Shown here piece after piece: positions 5,801 to 56,366 of a stretch of 64,000 nucleotides of DNA. Numbering within the stretch: the stretch's first letter is position 1; the number at the start of each line of letters is the position of its first letter. A program made the position numbers and the translations under genes. Origin of the DNA: Lachnospiraceae bacterium (GTDB taxonomy: Bacteria > Bacillota > Clostridia > Lachnospirales > Lachnospiraceae); NCBI GenBank assembly GCA_021202335.1, contig JAJQDE010000024.1, positions 1 through 64,000 of the forward strand, read 5' to 3'. The notes beneath the pieces were generated by a model. That model made no database searches. It saw nothing but the letters and a program-made list of their open reading frames with translations, and was not told the origin of the DNA.

Positions 5801-6052
5801 ATTAGCAAGGATGACCGTATTCACAATGCGATAGCAGGGACAAAGGCAGCCCATCCGGAGTTTAGCAAAATTCAGCTTGGTTGGCTTGACCGCATGGAGC
5901 AGCAGCTTCTTAGGGAATCGGTGATTAACAGGGAAACCTTTGAATCGGAGGCTTTTAAGAACAAAGGCGGATATAATGCTGTAAATAAAGCATTTGGGCA
6001 GAAGCTGGATGAGCTGATTGATGAAATTAATGACAGGATGTATTCGGCGTAA
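2813..6052 (+). CDS. hsdR: Type I restriction endonuclease, R (motor and nuclease) subunit
   Basis: HsdR of about 1079 residues, the ATP-driven translocase and endonuclease of a type I restriction-modification complex. Residues 1-110 resemble a DUF4145 domain; a coiled coil follows (about 135-170). The PD-(D/E)xK nuclease core is at about 245-262 (D followed by IVEAKKK). Superfamily 2 helicase motifs follow: Walker A MATGTGKT near 401, DEAH near 507, LTATP near 551, TTGIDV near 731 and QMLGRATRL near 755. The C-terminal 300 residues are helical, as in EcoEI-type R subunits. The ATG at 2813 has GAGGAGG 8-10 bases upstream; the tracked TTG at 2762 has none. hsdM and hsdS lie directly downstream. 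Confidence 0.95.
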   Translation: MGNFTFLESHWTDLARLGDLSEKYVYSDPNTSIMKQGMLAEIMVKYMLAYDGIAEPKYDNTHATRIRLLKQNDLLPYEVNNTLYVLRKARNDAAHNGAEEGDKALSNLNLLYALCVWYMQTYGDYQFVPKPYQEPVDYAVNLDELEKENKELEERNKALLIELQNIQQQGKADSNRRAVAYTKAMALKLTEAQTRELIDEQLRRCGWEVDTAQIRYAKGSRPTKGRNLAIAEWPTDSKVGNHGFADYALFIGEKLVGIVEAKKKHTNISSVLDGQCKDYAKGIKAEHQKYVIGRFGAYMAPFLYATNGRPYIRQYEQMSGIWFLDVREFYNAPKPLSGWPTPEGIEQALEKDIAAADKKLAATGYEVLQDPGGLNLRYYQIEAIKAAEKEIAEHKNTVLLAMATGTGKTRTVLGMIYRFLDAGRFKRVLYLVDRKALGDQTMDTFKEVRLKELLTLDRMYDVKSLEDKDFEKDTRVHIATVQSLVKRILYNESDKALGVSDYDLIIVDEAHRGYILDKEMGNDEALYRNQDDFRSKYRAVIDYFDAVKIALTATPALHTTEIFGKPVYSYDYRTAVIDGYLVDHDAPHIIKTKLSEEGIRFEKGATVPIYDPVTNTIINSDELEDDLKFEVEDFNRKVVNKSFNEEVLKEIAKDIDPNEKGKTLIFAVDDAHADMITQILKDYYTEQGIAEEAVMKITGSIENGNPVKIKEAIRRFKNETYPNIVVTVDLLTTGIDVEEIENLVFMRRIRSRILFEQMLGRATRLCPRIGKTHFEIYDAVGVYNALLPVSNMKPVVANPATSFDDLIDGMDDLDSDRARENQIDLIIAKIRRNKAGMSDELRAQFEQLSGGLSLEAFIDSLKSMPVDKAVETVKKSRQALDYVRRMPHEHEKFLSDEEDMVTAHTRGYGDAVKPEDYLKEFRDFIDNNLNEIAALNIVATRPKELTRKSLKELKLILDRESFSETMLQTAWKEMTNEDIAADIISFIRQRSIGDALISKDDRIHNAIAGTKAAHPEFSKIQLGWLDRMEQQLLRESVINRETFESEAFKNKGGYNAVNKAFGQKLDELIDEINDRMYSA

Positions 6053-6123
6053 AAACCAACAAGTTGGTTTGCGAATTTGTGTATACAAATTCGCGGGTTT
6101 GAGAAAGAATAGGGATTATAAAA
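6053..6123 (+). repeat. Palindromic pre-start element (copy 1) upstream of hsdM
   Basis: Two adjacent hairpins: AAACCAAC-aa-GTTGGTTT (6053-6070) and GCGAATTTG-tgtata-CAAATTCGC (6071-6094). A tail GGGTTTGAGAAAGAATAGGG follows, then the hsdM ATG. Related elements precede uvrB, gmd and the ABC transporter gene in this window. Confidence 0.7.
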
Positions 6124-9430: not shown

Positions 9431-9507
9431 GAGGTGCCGACCGATGAAAGATGATATACAGTTATTTGAAAATCAGAAAATTCGCACAGCATGGAATGAG
9501 GAAGAAG
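9431..9507 (+). repeat. Direct repeat, copy A (BRO gene 5' end)
   Basis: 77 bases from the ribosome binding site into the BRO coding region. They recur at 10695-10771 with about two mismatches. Confidence 0.85.
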
Positions 9508-10316: not shown

Positions 10317-10718
10317 CGCAAATGCTTTTATGCGTTAGGTGTTATTTATAATGCAAAAAATCAAAAGTTGGCTATTGGAGAAGAAAAGCCGGGTTTTGAA
10401 AGGAAAAATCCGGCTATTGGAGAAGAAAAGCCAACTTTTGAAAAAATAAGTTCAATGTTGACCGCACAGAACTATAGCAGAAAAACTAATGACTATATTT
10501 TAAAGGTTTATGAAGCAATTGACCAAAATCAGATTTTTGGCGCACCGGAAGTGAAAAATATACTGGGATGCTCCACATCTTCGTCTAAAGAGATTATGAA
10601 AAAGATAAGAAATTTAGAAATAGTAGAACCGGTAAAAGGGAAGGGAAAGTATATTTTCAGGAGATATTTGAAGGACGTGATTAAAATCGAAAATGAGGTG
10701 CCAACCGATGAAAGATGA
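10317..10718 (+). pseudogene. C-terminal fragment of an AlbA-like/ATP-binding transcriptional regulator
   Basis: The frame encodes two copies of a Lys-Pro-rich linker (AIGEEKP, 42-bp period, at 10371 and 10413) and then a winged-helix-like domain (ILKVYEAI, FGAPEVKNIL, LEIVEPVKGKGKYIF). This is the usual tail of Firmicutes proteins with an N-terminal AlbA_2 domain, often annotated as putative DNA binding domain proteins. The N-terminal domain is missing. The frame is open up to the BRO stop codon and no convincing ribosome binding site precedes the tracked TTG at 10368, so I read it as a truncated gene. Confidence 0.55.
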
Positions 10719-10800
10719 TATACAGTTATTTGAGAATCAGAAAATTCGCACAGCATGGAATGAGGAAGAAGGACGTAGTTGCTCCGAAGAACACGACTAA
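10695..10800 (+). pseudogene. Decayed second copy of the BRO-N gene
   Basis: The ribosome binding site, the ATG at 10708 and the first 21 codons repeat the BRO gene at 9444 almost exactly. Then two short deletions relative to the intact copy (rejoining at GACGTAGTTGC and CCGAAG) shift the frame, and a stop follows after 30 codons. Confidence 0.8.
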
Positions 10801-11640: not shown

Positions 11641-11912
11641 AGAATATTTAAGGCGATTGGAGCCTTATTGATTGGATGATAAATCCGTATTTTATAAGTT
11701 GGATAACTGCTTACGAAGTTGGTGACTATAAACCAAATCATGTGCGTTTTCGTACAACCCACTTGTGAAAATCAATAAGAGTAGTAAAAGTAAAATGTTT
11801 TGCTATATAGACTCTAATCACCCTGTTATATGTGCGCATGAATTGTATTCATGTGTTGCGGTAGTGTGAATGAATTTGCAGGTGGAAATCGGAAACGGTT
11901 TCCACCGTTTTT
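11641..11912 (+). ncRNA. Structured leader RNA candidate, copy 1
   Basis: Candidate RNA from the promoter start to the terminator. Visible pairings: AAGGC/GCCTT hairpin at the 5' end; TTATTGATT (11666-11674) with AATCAATAA (11770-11778), enclosing several small hairpins (GGAT/ATCC, GTGCG-tttt-CGTAC); AGAGT..ACTCT enclosing AGTAAAA/TTTTGCT; CATGAAT-tgt-ATTCATG (11837-11853). It ends in a strong intrinsic terminator. I could not match it to a known riboswitch or small RNA family. Confidence 0.45.
11881..11912 (+). terminator. Intrinsic terminator in leader copy 1
   Basis: GGTGGAAA / TTTCCACC stem with a 10-base loop followed by GTTTTT. It lies about 240 bases after the promoter and before any gene, as in attenuation. 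Confidence 0.8.
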
Positions 11913-11963
11913 ATCGTATAGGAAAACGCTGCCTGATTGGTAAGCCTTATGGGGGAATGGCAG

Positions 11964-12041
11964 ATGGATTGGGATAAGGAGCTGCACAGCGGGGAAATAT
12001 ATAATCCGAATGACAAAAAGATTATGGAAGAGAATATTTAA
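11964..12041 (+). pseudogene. Truncated acetyltransferase start created by the tandem duplication
   Basis: Has the same GGGGGA ribosome binding site and ATG as the intact gene at 12354. It encodes the first 23 residues, then runs into the next leader copy and stops. It could act as a translated upstream ORF. Confidence 0.75.
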
Positions 12042-12302
12042 GGCGATTGGAGCCTTATTGATTGGATGATAAATCCGTATTTTATAAGTTGGATAACTGC
12101 TTACGAAGTTGGTGACTATAAACCAAATCATGTGCGTTTTCGTACAACCCACTTGTGAAAATCAATAAGAGTAGTAAAAGTAAAATGTTTTGCTATATAG
12201 ACTCTAATCACCCTGTTATATGTGCGCATGAATTGTATTCATGTGTTGCGGTAGTGTGAATGAATTTGCAGGTGGAAATCGGAAACGGTTTCCACCGTTT
12301 TT
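12031..12302 (+). ncRNA. Structured leader RNA candidate, copy 2
   Basis: Same pairings as copy 1, ending in the second terminator (12271-12302). It lies directly ahead of the intact acetyltransferase gene. Confidence 0.45.
12271..12302 (+). terminator. Intrinsic terminator in leader copy 2
   Basis: Same GGTGGAAA / TTTCCACC stem and GTTTTT tract as in copy 1. Transcription from the single promoter must pass both terminators to reach the operon. Confidence 0.8.
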
Positions 12303-12353
12303 ATCGTATAGGAAAACGCTGCCTGATTGGTAAGCCTTATGGGGGAATGGCAG

Positions 12354-23266: not shown

Positions 23267-23430
23267 GCAGTCTCACACGCAATGGACAAATTGCGCGCTT
23301 TGTAGTAGTATAGGAATTATATTCTATATTATGAGAACCTGCTGGCGCAGAACCTCATAATCGTATACTATAAAACAGACGCGCAGCTTGTTCTTTTTTT
23401 GCGCTGATTTATACATTTGTGGAGGAAAAT
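23267..23430. other. Intergenic region before uvrB with inverted repeats
   Basis: No gene is visible. TTATGAG (23329-23335) pairs with CTCATAA (23354-23360), and GCGCA pairs with TGCGC around a T-rich loop (23380-23405). I see no LexA-type box (GAAC-N4-GTTC) and no promoter I would trust. Confidence 0.5.
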
Positions 23431-23527
23431 AAAACCAACAAGTTGGTTTGCAAATATTGTGCTTACGCAAAATGAGCGTAGCTCATTATGAATTTGCAGG
23501 CTTGAGTAAGAATGGAGGCTTCATAAA
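23431..23527 (+). repeat. Palindromic pre-start element (copy 2) upstream of uvrB
   Basis: AAACCAAC-aa-GTTGGTTT (23432-23449) as in copy 1. An outer GCAAAT / ATTTGC stem (23450-23497) encloses TACGC / GCGTA, and the tail GGCTTGAGTAAGAATGGAGG runs up to the uvrB start. Confidence 0.7.
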
Positions 23528-25510
23528 ATGAACTTCAAGCTTCACGCTCCATATCAGCCCACGGGTGACCAGCCGCAGGCAATCGAGGCGCTCGTGAAGG
23601 GCTTCAAGGAAGGCAATCAATTCCAGACTTTACTGGGGGTTACGGGTTCGGGAAAGACCTTCACGATGGCGAATGTGATTGCGGCGCTAAATAAGCCCAC
23701 GCTTATCATCAGCCACAACAAAACCCTTGCGGGACAATTGTACTCCGAAATGAAGGAATTTTTCCCTGAAAACGCGGTGGAGTATTTTGTGTCCTACTAT
23801 GACTATTATCAGCCGGAGGCTTATATCCCATCGTCTGACACCTATATTGCAAAGGATTCCGCGGTGAATGACGAGATAGACAAGCTGCGGCTGTCGGCTA
23901 CGGCGTCGCTTACTGAGCGCAGGGATGTGGTCGTTGTCGCGTCCGTGTCCTGCATATACGGTTTGGGAAGCCCCGACGAGTATCAGGGCATGATGCTTTC
24001 TCTGCGCCCCGGCATGGAAAAGGATAGGGACAGTGTCATACGCGCACTGATAGAGATGCAGTATGACAGGAATGACATTGACCTTGAGCGCGGGCGTTTC
24101 CGCGTGCATGGGGATGTTGTGGACATAAATCCCGCGCAGGGCGGCGACAGCCTTATCCGCATAGAATATTTTGGCGACGAGATAGACCGTATATGTGAAA
24201 TAGATCCCGAGACAAGCAAGGTCACGGCGACGCTTGAGCATGTCACGATTTTCCCCGCGTCGCATTACGTGGTTGCGCCCGAGAGGATAAAGACGGCGTG
24301 TGAAAATATTGAGGCGGAGATGAAGGAGCGCGTGCGGTACTTTAAGAGCGAGGACAAGCTCCTTGAGGCGCAGCGCATATCCGAGCGCACGAATTTTGAC
24401 GTGGAGATGCTTCGGGAAACGGGCTTCTGTTCGGGAATTGAAAATTATTCAAGGCATTTGAACGGCACGCGTGAGGGCGACCCGCCGTACTGTCTTTTGG
24501 ACTTCTTTACGGACGATTTTCTTATCATAGTGGACGAGTCGCATATGACGATACCGCAGATACGCGGAATGTACGCGGGCGACCGTTCGCGCAAGAATAC
24601 ACTCGTGGAGTATGGCTTCAGGCTTCCCTCCGCTTTGGATAACAGACCGCTTAAATTCGAGGAGTTTGAGCAGAAGATAGACCAAATGCTTTTTGTGTCG
24701 GCAACTCCCGGCGTTTACGAGGGCGAGCATGAGCTTTTGCGCACAGAGCAGGTTATCAGACCGACGGGGCTTTTGGATCCTGAGATTATCGTTTGTCCTG
24801 TCGAGGGGCAGATTGACGACCTTATATCGCGCATAAACGAGCAGACGAAAAACCACAACAAGGTTTTAGTGACGACGCTCACAAAGCATATGGCGGAGGA
24901 TTTGACGAAGTATTTAAGCGAGGTCGGCATACGCGTAAAATATCTGCACTCCGACATTGATACGCTGGAGAGGTCGGAGATTATAAGAGATATGCGCCTT
25001 GACGTGTTTGACGTTTTAGTGGGTATCAACCTTTTACGAGAGGGGCTGGATATCCCCGAGATTTCGCTTGTCGCAATCCTTGACGCGGACAAGGAGGGCT
25101 TTCTGCGTTCCGCCACATCGCTGATACAGACCGTTGGGCGCGCGGCGAGGAACGCGCAGGGGCACGTGGTAATGTACGCGGACGTGATAACGGATTCCGT
25201 GCGTGAAACGCTTGACGAAACGGAGCGCAGGCGCAAAATACAGCAAAAATACAATGAGGAGCATAATATCACGCCGCAGACCATCAAAAAGGCGGTGCGC
25301 GATCTGATAAGCATTTCAAAGGCTGTCGCGAAGGAGGAGCAGGTGTTTGAGAAGGATCCTGAATCCATGGATGAGAAGGAGCTGAAAAAGCTTATAGCGA
25401 CGGTGGAGAAGAATATGCGCAGGGCGGCGGCTGATTTGAACTTTGAGGCGGCGGTAGAGCTTCGCGATAAAATGCTTGAGCTTAAAACGATGCTTGGAAA
25501 AATGGAATAG
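23528..25510 (+). CDS. uvrB: UvrABC excinuclease subunit B
   Basis: 660 residues, standard UvrB length. Walker [14 protein letters not shown] near 40, the beta-hairpin segment [11 protein letters not shown] used to probe DNA, VDESH, and helicase motifs [14 protein letters not shown] and QTVGRAARN are present. A C-terminal UVR domain ([13 protein letters not shown]) binds UvrC. It loads on damaged DNA with UvrA in nucleotide excision repair. Its start is preceded by a hairpin element. uvrA follows after 29 bases, so both are co-expressed. Confidence 0.97.
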
Positions 25511-41451: not shown

Positions 41452-41455
41452 AAAG

Positions 41456-41591
41456 AGGAAGAACCAACATAGTTGGAAGAACCAACTTTGTTGGAAGAAC
41501 CAACATAGATGGTTCTGCAGGTTTGTGACTGAGCGTTGCTTGCACAAACATTGCATTATGCGTAAAAAGCAGCGCAGAAATGAGGGAAATT
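41456..41591 (+). repeat. Triple CCAAC-type palindrome array upstream of gmd
   Basis: Three tandem units of about 18 bases, each an imperfect palindrome: CCAACatAGTTGG, CCAACtttGTTGG and CCAACatagATGG, separated by AAGAA. A tail TTCTGCAGGTTTGTGACTGAG and AGCGCAGAAATGAGGGAAA lead into the gmd start. It shares the CCAAC-N-GTTGG core with the elements before hsdM and uvrB. Confidence 0.7.
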
Positions 41592-42665
41592 ATGAATAAT
41601 ATTGCACTTATTACGGGAATTACGGGGCAGGACGGTTCATACCTTGCGGAATTTCTGCTGGGAAAGGGCTATGAGGTTCATGGGCTGATACGCCGTCACA
41701 GCATCTCAAACACGATGCGCATTGACCACCTGATCCAATCCGATTATTATAAGGTTAAATTTTTCCTGCATTATGCAGAAACCACGGATTCGTCAAACCT
41801 GATGCGCATTATCGGAGAAATCCGCCCTACGGAGGTGTATAACCTTGCGGCGCAGTCGCATGTGGGAGTGTCCTTTGAGGTTCCCGAATACACTGCGGAC
41901 GCGACGGGCGTGAGCACCTTAAAGCTGCTCGAGGCAATCCGCGTAAACGGCGGAAACTGCCGTTATTATCAGGCGTCCACCTCGGAGCTTTTCGGAGGGC
42001 TTCCGGAAACCGCTCCGCAGAGTGAGAAAACGCCCTTCTACCCTAAGAGTCCGTACGGCGTGGCGAAGCTTTACTCCTATTGGATAACGGTAAATTACAG
42101 GGAGTCCTACAATATGTTTGCCTGCAACGGCATCCTGTTCAATCATGAATCTCCCAGACGCGGCGAGAATTTCGTGACAAGGAAAATCACGCTTGCCATC
42201 GCAAACATCATAGCGGGAAATCAGCAGAAGCTTTCGCTTGGAAACATGAATGCAAAGAGAGATTGGGGCTTTGCGGGCGATTACGTTGAAGGAATGTGGC
42301 TGATGCTCCAACAGAGCACACCGGGCGATTACGTGCTTGCCACAAACGAAACGCATACGGTCCGTGAGTTTGTCGAGGCGGCATTCGGAGAGCTTGGGAT
42401 TGAGCTTCGCTGGGAAGGCGAGGGCGTAGGTGAGAAGGGCTACGATGCCAAAACCGACAGGCTTTTGGTGGATGTGAACCCTGAGTTTTACCGCCCTGCC
42501 GAGGTTGAGTTTTTGTGGGGAAATCCCGCAAAGGCCGAAAAAGAGCTTGGCTGGAAACGAAAGATTGGCTTCAGGGAGCTTGTTGAGCTGATGATGGATG
42601 CGGATTTAAAGGCGGTGGCAGGAATGTCCTGCGAGGAATATAAGGAAAGGCAAATGGAAGAATGA
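41592..42665 (+). CDS. gmd: GDP-mannose 4,6-dehydratase
   Basis: 357 residues. NADP-binding [15 protein letters not shown] at the N-terminus, catalytic Ser-Glu in ASTSELFGG and Tyr-Lys in [10 protein letters not shown]. It makes GDP-4-keto-6-deoxymannose. The fcl gene, which turns this into GDP-L-fucose, overlaps its stop by four bases, so the two form a unit. ATG at 41592 behind GAGGGAAA; the tracked ATG at 41580 lies inside the ribosome binding region. Confidence 0.96.
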
Positions 42666-54548: not shown

Positions 54549-54626
54549 GTGTGAAAATAAATTTTCACACGGCAAATTCGGGCGTAAACCCAAATTTGCG
54601 GGCATGGGAAAGAGTGAGGGACTGAG
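54549..54626 (+). repeat. Palindromic pre-start element (copy 4) upstream of the ABC transporter
   Basis: GTGTGAAAAT-aa-ATTTTCACAC (54549-54570), ten perfect pairs. Then GCAAATT-c-GGG / CCC-a-AATTTGC (54572-54599), and a tail GGGCATGGGAAAGAGTGAGG before the ATG. The tail matches those before hsdM and uvrB in spacing and composition. Confidence 0.7.
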
Positions 54627-56366
54627 ATGCTGAAAATATTAAGAAAAATCAATATTCTCATGGATAGGAAGCAAAAGGGCGAGATGGCGCGGCTGCTTGT
54701 GATGATGATTATATCCGCAGGGCTGGAAACAGGGGCGGTCATGATGGTCATGACCGTGGTGCAGCTTATCATAAATCCTGATGTCCTGGTGCAGGGCGAC
54801 ACCTACCGAAAAATCTGCGATATGCTGCATTTGGAGAGCGCCGTGCAGTTCTCGGTGCTTGCGATACTGTTTCTCATCGGGCTTTATGCCGCAAAAAATA
54901 TATTTGCGTTTTTCATGCAAAGAAGCCTTTACCGTTTTGTGTATGGCAATCAGTTTAAGACGGCAGCCAGTCTGATGAAGAATTTCGTGAGGCGTGAGTA
55001 TGAGTATTATCTGAATGCGGAAACGGCTGTTATTCAAAGGAGCATTACATCGGACGTAAACAATATGTATGCGCTTATCATGTCGGTGCTGCAGATTGCG
55101 TCGGAGCTGATAGTGGCAGTTTTCCTTGTGGCAGCGCTTGCGATTGAGGATCCTGTTATGACGCTGGTGATTGCGGTCATTCTGATGGTGACGCTGGTGG
55201 TCATCAAAAACATCATTAAACCCATAATGAACCGCACGGGAAGAGAAAATCAGGACTACGGCGCGTCGATGTACGCGTGGATTTCACAGACGGTTCAGGG
55301 AATAAAGGAGATAAAGGTCGCGGGGCGCGAGCAGTATTTCATCGGGGAATACTGCAAGGTCGGCGAGGGATATGTCAAGGCAATGGAGCGTTTTTCGCTG
55401 TTCAACAACACGCCGAAGCTTCTGATAGAAACAGTTTGTATCGCGGGGCTTTTGTGCTATATCATGGTGCTGATCGTGTCGGGCGTGGACGTGGCGGGGA
55501 TGGTGTCACTGTTTGCAGCCTTTGGCATTGCGGCAATGCGGCTTCTTCCGGCGGCGAGCCGCATCAACAATCAAATGACGAGTATGGCGTTTAACGAGCC
55601 GTTTTTCTTTAACGTGAGCGACAACCTGATTGAAGAAACGGACGAGGCGCATACGGATATTTCCTATGCGGTGGCGGCAAAGGAAAAGCTTCCCGTTAAA
55701 AGGGAAATCCGCCTTGAGGGGATTACCTACCACTATCCCGGATCAGACAAGCTGATTTTCGATAACGCCACGGTGAGCTTCCCGATTGGGAAGTCCATTG
55801 GCATAAAGGGCGCAAGCGGCGCCGGAAAGACCACGATCATCGACATACTTTTGGGGCTTTTGAAGCTGCAGGGCGGCAGAGTGCTTGCGGACGACACGGA
55901 TATTCAGCTTCATTACAGGGAGTGGCTTGCAAACGTGGGTTACATTCCGCAGATGATTTTTCTTTTGGATGCGGATATAAGAAAGAACGTTGCCTTTGGC
56001 GTACCCGAGGAGGAGATTGACGACGATAAGCTTTGGTATGCCCTGCGCGAGGCACAGCTTGACGGGTTTGTGAAAACCCTTCCGGAGGGGGCGCTCACAG
56101 GCATCGGCGAGCGCGGCATACGCCTTTCGGGCGGACAGCGGCAGCGAATCGGGATTGCGAGGGCGCTGTACCATGACCCCGAGGTGCTGATTTTGGACGA
56201 GGCGACCTCCGCGCTTGACAATGAAACGGAGGCGGCAATCATGGACTCAATCAACAGGCTGCACGGCAAAAAGACGCTTATTATCATTGCGCACAGGCTG
56301 CAGACGATAGAGAAATGCGACATGGTGTTTACTGTCGAGGATGGCGGGATAGTAAGGGAGAGGTAA
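54627..56366 (+). CDS. ABC exporter, fused membrane and ATPase domains (MsbA/PglK-like)
   Basis: 579 residues. Six membrane helices in the first 320 residues, then an ATPase with Walker A GASGAGKTTIIDILLG, signature LSGGQRQRIG and Walker B VLILDEATSALD. In a polysaccharide cluster such a half-transporter most likely flips a lipid-linked glycan, like PglK, instead of exporting a drug. ATG behind GAGGG; preceded by a hairpin element that separates it from the glycosyltransferase block. Confidence 0.9.
   Translation: MLKILRKINILMDRKQKGEMARLLVMMIISAGLETGAVMMVMTVVQLIINPDVLVQGDTYRKICDMLHLESAVQFSVLAILFLIGLYAAKNIFAFFMQRSLYRFVYGNQFKTAASLMKNFVRREYEYYLNAETAVIQRSITSDVNNMYALIMSVLQIASELIVAVFLVAALAIEDPVMTLVIAVILMVTLVVIKNIIKPIMNRTGRENQDYGASMYAWISQTVQGIKEIKVAGREQYFIGEYCKVGEGYVKAMERFSLFNNTPKLLIETVCIAGLLCYIMVLIVSGVDVAGMVSLFAAFGIAAMRLLPAASRINNQMTSMAFNEPFFFNVSDNLIEETDEAHTDISYAVAAKEKLPVKREIRLEGITYHYPGSDKLIFDNATVSFPIGKSIGIKGASGAGKTTIIDILLGLLKLQGGRVLADDTDIQLHYREWLANVGYIPQMIFLLDADIRKNVAFGVPEEEIDDDKLWYALREAQLDGFVKTLPEGALTGIGERGIRLSGGQRQRIGIARALYHDPEVLILDEATSALDNETEAAIMDSINRLHGKKTLIIIAHRLQTIEKCDMVFTVEDGGIVRER

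Follow-up and report, generated by a model that had tools for sequence, protein, structure and literature searches.

A probable superfamily of short non-coding mobile elements at the start codons of unrelated genes in a Lachnospiraceae bacterium

We have identified a set of short, non-coding elements in the genome of a gut-type Lachnospiraceae bacterium (2.74 Mb, 65 contigs), which probably constitute a superfamily of mobile DNA. They would enter the spacer that separates the SD (ribosome-binding) sequence of a gene from its start codon, reading in the same direction as the gene, and supply a new SD. They fall into three families and occupy ~147 non-overlapping places in the host genome (75 alpha, located with a covariance model, 41 gamma and 31 beta); these counts come from pattern and model searches, and the total is an estimate because thresholds differ per family. 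The original prediction was made from four copies, and the genome-wide search that it proposed has revealed many further ones, including those recovered with the alpha covariance model. It had also raised the possibility of a mobile miniature element, for which the high copy number, the tandem and nested copies, the patchy spread, the empty sites and the differing types at one site all speak.

The window, which is the whole 64,000-nt stretch that was analysed (G000:C59:1-64000), contains the four predicted elements, before hsdM, uvrB, gmd and an ABC transporter gene, as inspection of the sequence confirmed, and each takes up the room in front of a start codon. The hsdM, uvrB and ABC transporter copies belong to one family (gamma), and the gmd copy belongs to a related but different family (beta). 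The predicted CCAAC palindrome (AAACCAACAAGTTGGTTT) is the same at hsdM and uvrB, gmd has three AGAACCAAC..GTTGG units, and the ABC transporter copy has GTGTGAAAATAAATTTTCACAC instead. The hsdM element fills the entire 71-nt gap between the hsdR stop codon (6050-6052) and the hsdM ATG (6124), both genes being identified by Pfam; it has no P1 hairpin and carries the CCAAC palindrome in its place. The smaller relatives also claimed for the window did not hold up, as AGAAATGAGGR has 6 matches compared to 3.5 expected, which is not above chance. The features are as follows; the parts of the hsdM element, the new SD of the uvrB element and the SD-like stretch before the gmd element were read directly from the sequence.

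6053-6123, + strand: gamma element before hsdM (from the sequence and its genome-wide relatives)
6053-6070, + strand: palindrome AAACCAACAAGTTGGTTT of the hsdM element
6071-6094, + strand: P2 hairpin of the hsdM element, GCGAATTTG-tgtata-CAAATTCGC
6111-6114, + strand: element-borne SD of the hsdM element, AGGG
23421-23425, + strand: displaced native SD of uvrB, GTGGAGGAA (from the sequence and comparison with relative G011)
23431-23527, + strand: gamma element before uvrB (ATG at 23528), with an extra hairpin nested in P2
23462-23466, + strand: P2 loop strand CTTAC of the uvrB element, one side of the proposed pseudoknot
23506-23510, + strand: its proposed partner GTAAG, directly 5' of AATGGAGG
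23514-23518, + strand: element-borne SD of the uvrB element, GGAGG
41454-41459, + strand: SD-like AGAGGA directly before the gmd element
41460-41585, + strand: beta element before gmd (ATG at 41592), three AGAACCAAC..GTTGG units followed by P2
41529-41540, + strand: loop CTGAGCGTTGCT of the gmd element, complementary to AGCAGCGCAG at 41568-41577
41582-41585, + strand: SD of the gmd element, GAGG
54549-54626, + strand: gamma element before the ABC transporter gene (ATG at 54627)
54549-54570, 54572-54599 and 54614-54619, + strand: P1, P2 and the SD (in GTGAGG) of the same element

Two other repeats were seen in the window. An exact 300-nt direct repeat (11641-11940 and 12031-12330, 390 nt apart) is either a recent duplication or an assembly effect. 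A 77-nt repeat is 97% identical between 9431-9507 and 10695-10771, and its first copy lies inside a BRO-N-domain open frame adjoining hsdM/hsdS.

The three families are built on a common plan: a P1 hairpin and a P2 hairpin are followed by an SD and the start codon, and a pseudoknot joins the P2 loop to the bases that immediately precede the SD. Gamma reads GGCAAATTTGTG-CTTGC-GCCCAAATTCGC-GGGTTTGA-GCAAG-AATGGAGGATTAAG-ATG, beta reads AAGAGTGAAAAATAAATTTTTCACTC-GGCAAGTTTGTGA-CTGCGCGCTGCT-TGCACAAACATTGC..AGCAGCGCAG-AAATGAGG..ATG, and alpha, the largest family and the one with no copy in the window, reads TAGTGTGAAAAATAAGCTCGATAGCTTATTTTTCACAC-GGCTATTTGTG-CCGGAGCG-TCACAAATAGC-TTTGATGGCA-GACGCAAATCTGATATTTGCGTC-GCCCCGTCGCGTAAAA-CGCTCCGG-AATGGAGATTAAG-ATG. 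The elements are ~70-160 nt long. In some copies, the hairpins are separated or interrupted by additional palindromes such as AGAACCAACTTTGTTGGTTCT, and tandem and nested copies occur. The similarity far exceeds chance: the tail pattern GCRGGYTTGAGYARGAATGG has 56 genome matches against none for the reversed-pattern control, the tail pattern of the gmd type (beta) has 50 against 1, and the P1 pattern has 88 against 7. Two loci of the same genome (L054 and L067) contain internal deletions that join the 5' arm of P1 straight to the tail (TAGTGTGAAAAATAAATTTGCGGG), which apparently arose by recombination at AAATTT.

Forty-nine of the 59 sense alpha copies run right up to the start codon of an open frame (exactly, with one within 3 nt; a frame was counted if it had at least 50 codons or ran off the locus), and the remainder include tandem or degenerate copies. 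At the 5' junction, an SD-like heptamer (at least 6 of 7 positions) is present in 38 of 58 alpha copies, whereas a control stretch of the same length, located further upstream, had it in 0 of 58. In an earlier set, which overlaps in part with this one and comprises P1-bearing copies of every type, 20 of 36 had a 5' SD, against 0 and 2 of 36. The SD is present twice, a native one on the 5' side and an element-borne one on the 3' side. Some of the 5' SDs are the tail of another element in a tandem, many are not, and about one third of the 5' ends are without a clear SD. As for target-site duplications, an SD-like sequence lies on both sides, but the 3' SD is also conserved as a part of the element. 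The junctions are uncertain by a few bases, because the nearest genomes compared are only ~85-95% identical in the compared proteins.

Comparison with relatives revealed that orthologous genes can lack the element, as the original prediction had suggested should be checked; empty sites were found at uvrB, soj/parA and an ftsA-like gene. The uvrB region of the host genome consists of TTTGTGGAGGAAAATA, the gamma element and ATG. In G011, it reads TTTGGTGGAGGAATTTTCGT-ATG, with GGTGGAGGAATTTTCGT directly before the ATG, and the promoter stretch GTATACTATAAAACAGA/TTATACTATAAAACAGA is common to both genomes. None of the genus relatives whose uvrB upstream region was read has such an element. The soj/parA site is empty in G010 and G012 (GGGGAGGAATAGA-ATGGGG). 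In G006, a gamma-like element follows right after GGGGGAGGA, and the encoded protein is 95% identical to that of the host genome, in which an alpha element follows GGAATGGAGAA. The ftsA-like gene is preceded by a beta element in the host genome, and no element was seen before it in those genus relatives that were examined. The occurrence of two element types at the same orthologous site, together with the empty sites in sister species, argues strongly for repeated insertion into the spacer between SD and start codon. The host genome contains soj/parA twice (C63:57672 and C63:59354, 99% identical over the matched part), and the second copy carries an internal TGA.

In the model that we propose, an element, read in the same direction as the gene, would enter downstream of the SD and upstream of the start codon, leaving the native SD at its 5' junction. 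Its 3' end would bring a new SD that is suitably spaced from the native ATG, and the gene would stay translatable. In the inserted RNA, the hairpins P1 and P2 would form, with P3 in addition in alpha, and the P2 loop would pair, as a pseudoknot, with the stretch just 5' of the new SD; this fold could keep the new SD accessible. We infer that the SD/start region is the target and that the elements spread by transposition, although gene conversion between SD-like sequences may be an alternative.

The predicted RNA fold is best documented in alpha. In 21 copies of the host genome, pairing across P1, P2, P3 and the pseudoknot amounts to 97.5%, and 13 pairs have changed on both sides. In 66 aligned matches from several genera (7 of them antisense readings), 96.4% of cells are paired, pseudoknot included, compared to 37-46% when the alignment is slid. 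Two-sided changes occur in 35 of 46 pairs, compared to 21.9 in shuffles, and none of 500 shuffles scored as high. The model used for the alignment did not include the pseudoknot, whose strands nevertheless beat all 5000 shuffles, even when distinct strand pairs only are counted. The alpha variants are CCGGAGCG/CGCTCCGG, CCGAAGCG/CGCTTCGG, TCTGAGCG/CGCTCAGA and CGCAG/CTGCG. In gamma, the variants CTTGC/GCAAG, CTTAC/GTAAG and CTTAT/ATAAG lend the pseudoknot modest support (63 of 65 pairs; 214 of 5000 shuffles were equally good). The beta copies are too alike for covariation, and the complementary strands are kept in a relative (L178).

Conservation of the fold and of a pseudoknot directly 5' of the SD would also suit a translational riboswitch or leader, in which the pseudoknot senses a ligand or protein and thereby controls the downstream gene, the many copies forming a regulon. 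In topology, alpha is an H-type pseudoknot that encloses a hairpin and is reminiscent of SD-proximal riboswitches. The unpaired probability of the new SD is 0.51 with the pseudoknot held, 0.44 in the free fold and 0.37 in the shuffled element, a modest effect in the expected direction. However, the downstream genes are unrelated (uvrB, parA, yidC, holA-like, D-lactate dehydrogenase-like, hsdM and gmd) and the same genes in relatives are without the element. An anti-SD switch, in which CTCC would pair with the SD instead of the loop, was rejected, as this alternative pairing is without covariation. We consider such a riboswitch or leader rather unlikely. The elements may still act as the shared translational control device envisaged in the original prediction, since the structure next to the SD is conserved, but neither the choice of genes nor the one switch model examined points to it.

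The P1 hairpin begins with GTG, ATG or TTG followed by A-rich codons (NTG-AAA-AA) in 50 of the 51 alpha copies with an identifiable motif, usually at a distance of 5-6 nt from the SD core. This NTG may be a genuine start codon that opens a mini-frame, or it may simply follow from the sequence of P1. In the former case, the native SD could drive translation of a short leader peptide, with re-initiation at the new SD. However, the frame is not conserved; it ranges from 3 to 118 codons, P1 contains one-base indels and 19-20-nt hairpin insertions, and two distant copies read GTG-TAA. A leader mini-gene is doubtful, and a coding peptide was rejected on account of the frame.

No mobilising enzyme was identified in searches for a Y1 transposase and a reverse transcriptase. 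The elements have no terminal inverted repeats, as in the alignments the end TAGTGTGAAAA.. is not repeated in inverted form by the end ..GGAATGGAG, and are therefore not classical MITEs. These features, together with the single orientation and a hairpin directly 3' of a GGAG-like target, resemble REP-like elements, for which a Y1 (RAYT/TnpA) transposase would be the mobiliser and the SD "GGAG" would serve as foot or target tetranucleotide; the logic of IS200/IS605 is similar. However, the Y1 transposase (PF01797) is absent from the host genome and from G009, the richest two of the genus, and in other genomes its occurrence does not follow copy number, which makes this route improbable. A reverse transcriptase or group II intron was rejected as the common mobiliser, since PF00078 is absent from several carriers (G030, G165, G269 and G312); Rfam scans also gave no group II intron match.

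The distribution of the elements is patchy. Copy number ranges from 0 to 49 among genus mates (49 in G009). Alpha is present at E<=1e-8 in at least 12 of 295 genomes of the order, from nine genera and two families; strict filters were applied and ten candidates were scored per genome, so that these figures and the copy counts are lower limits. Some carriers in the order have ten or more copies and most genomes have none. Such a combination of patchy occurrence and many copies is typical of mobile elements. The exact tail pattern, searched over all 84,980 species, was found in four stretches, of which two are contigs of a single Bacillota MAG, one is from a Lachnospiraceae MAG and one, as a pattern match alone, from a planctomycete MAG. 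The presence of alpha in nine sampled genera could reflect an ancestral, immobile leader RNA that was lost many times, but this is very improbable given near-identical and tandem copies at unrelated genes in one genome, differing families at the same gene, the native SD kept beside the element and the absence from most of the order.

Alpha copies also occur in three unverified fecal "phage" scaffolds (L319, L320 and L321; MT836788, MT838414 and MT837007), where they show a further pseudoknot variant, GCAGGCG/CGCCTGC, and precede an enolase-like gene and two other open frames. Phage carriage was rejected, as these scaffolds are probably bacterial contamination, and the only pattern match in viral_contigs lies within an open frame and is apparently due to chance. 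No element was found on plasmids.

Insertion between SD and start codon, followed by replacement of the SD, appears to be a little-known route by which mobile DNA settles beside genes without silencing them. Most short bacterial repeats are thought to persist by landing in harmless intergenic DNA. The present elements occupy a highly sensitive spot of the gene and apparently survive by carrying the missing part along. If this is confirmed, the elements would provide exchangeable translation starts from a natural source, would lie at the start of perhaps 5% of the genes in a host species and would pose the question of which enzyme recognises a ribosome-binding site.

A search of largely open-access literature found no published description of such elements, and their novelty is thus provisional. 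Like MITEs and REP/BIME repeats, they are short, non-coding, multicopy and hairpin-forming, and they are dispersed (~147 places, with no conserved frame). They differ in the missing terminal inverted repeats and in the lack of a Y1 transposase in the richest genomes. The preQ1-II type of SD-proximal riboswitch has an H-type pseudoknot and an embedded hairpin next to the SD, as in alpha. The present elements, however, match no Rfam family at the gathering score, precede functionally unrelated genes and are distributed like mobile DNA. The pneumococcal BOX, RUP and SPRITE repeats are likewise small, interspersed, modular, transcribed, judged parasitic and inserted into one another (PMC3049150). 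Compared by description only, those repeats are over-represented between convergent genes, whereas the present elements lie at gene starts with an SD at both ends.

Rfam scans at gathering and relaxed thresholds returned no family above threshold on an element, one tRNA gene aside, and no riboswitch match at relaxed thresholds. The nearest known family is the TD-2 RNA (RF03162, clan CL00124), a weak match on the opposite strand. TD-2 was described from Treponema, reportedly in a 2017 survey. Six sub-threshold matches were obtained in the scanned loci (38.8, 32.4, 31.0, 28.2, 28.1 and 27.9 bits), the best of which lies below the gathering score of 48.7 bits, and the matches that were aligned run antisense to the gene downstream. 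The four that were checked lie exactly on gamma elements, antisense (L170 1501-1585, L169 1502-1586, L171 1501-1583 and L002 1442-1533). Both TD-2 and gamma contain two adjacent long hairpins, with TGAAAA/TTTTCA in the first stem and TTAC in the second loop, and the TD-2 tail reads GCAAAATTTGG, like GCAGATTTTGG of gamma. The layout and several sequence blocks agree in the aligned Rfam matches. TD-2 differs in being filed as an sRNA, and, if the kinship is real, may have been modelled on the wrong strand. TD-2 is a lead to the nearest relative, not evidence of membership. We tentatively suggest, as a possibility short of even likelihood, an order-wide class of mobile element that targets the translation initiation region, with a native SD before its own NTG and a replacement SD behind a pseudoknot, and that may correspond to the TD-2 RNA of spirochaetes in reverse. 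The elements described here may then explain an Rfam family of unknown function.
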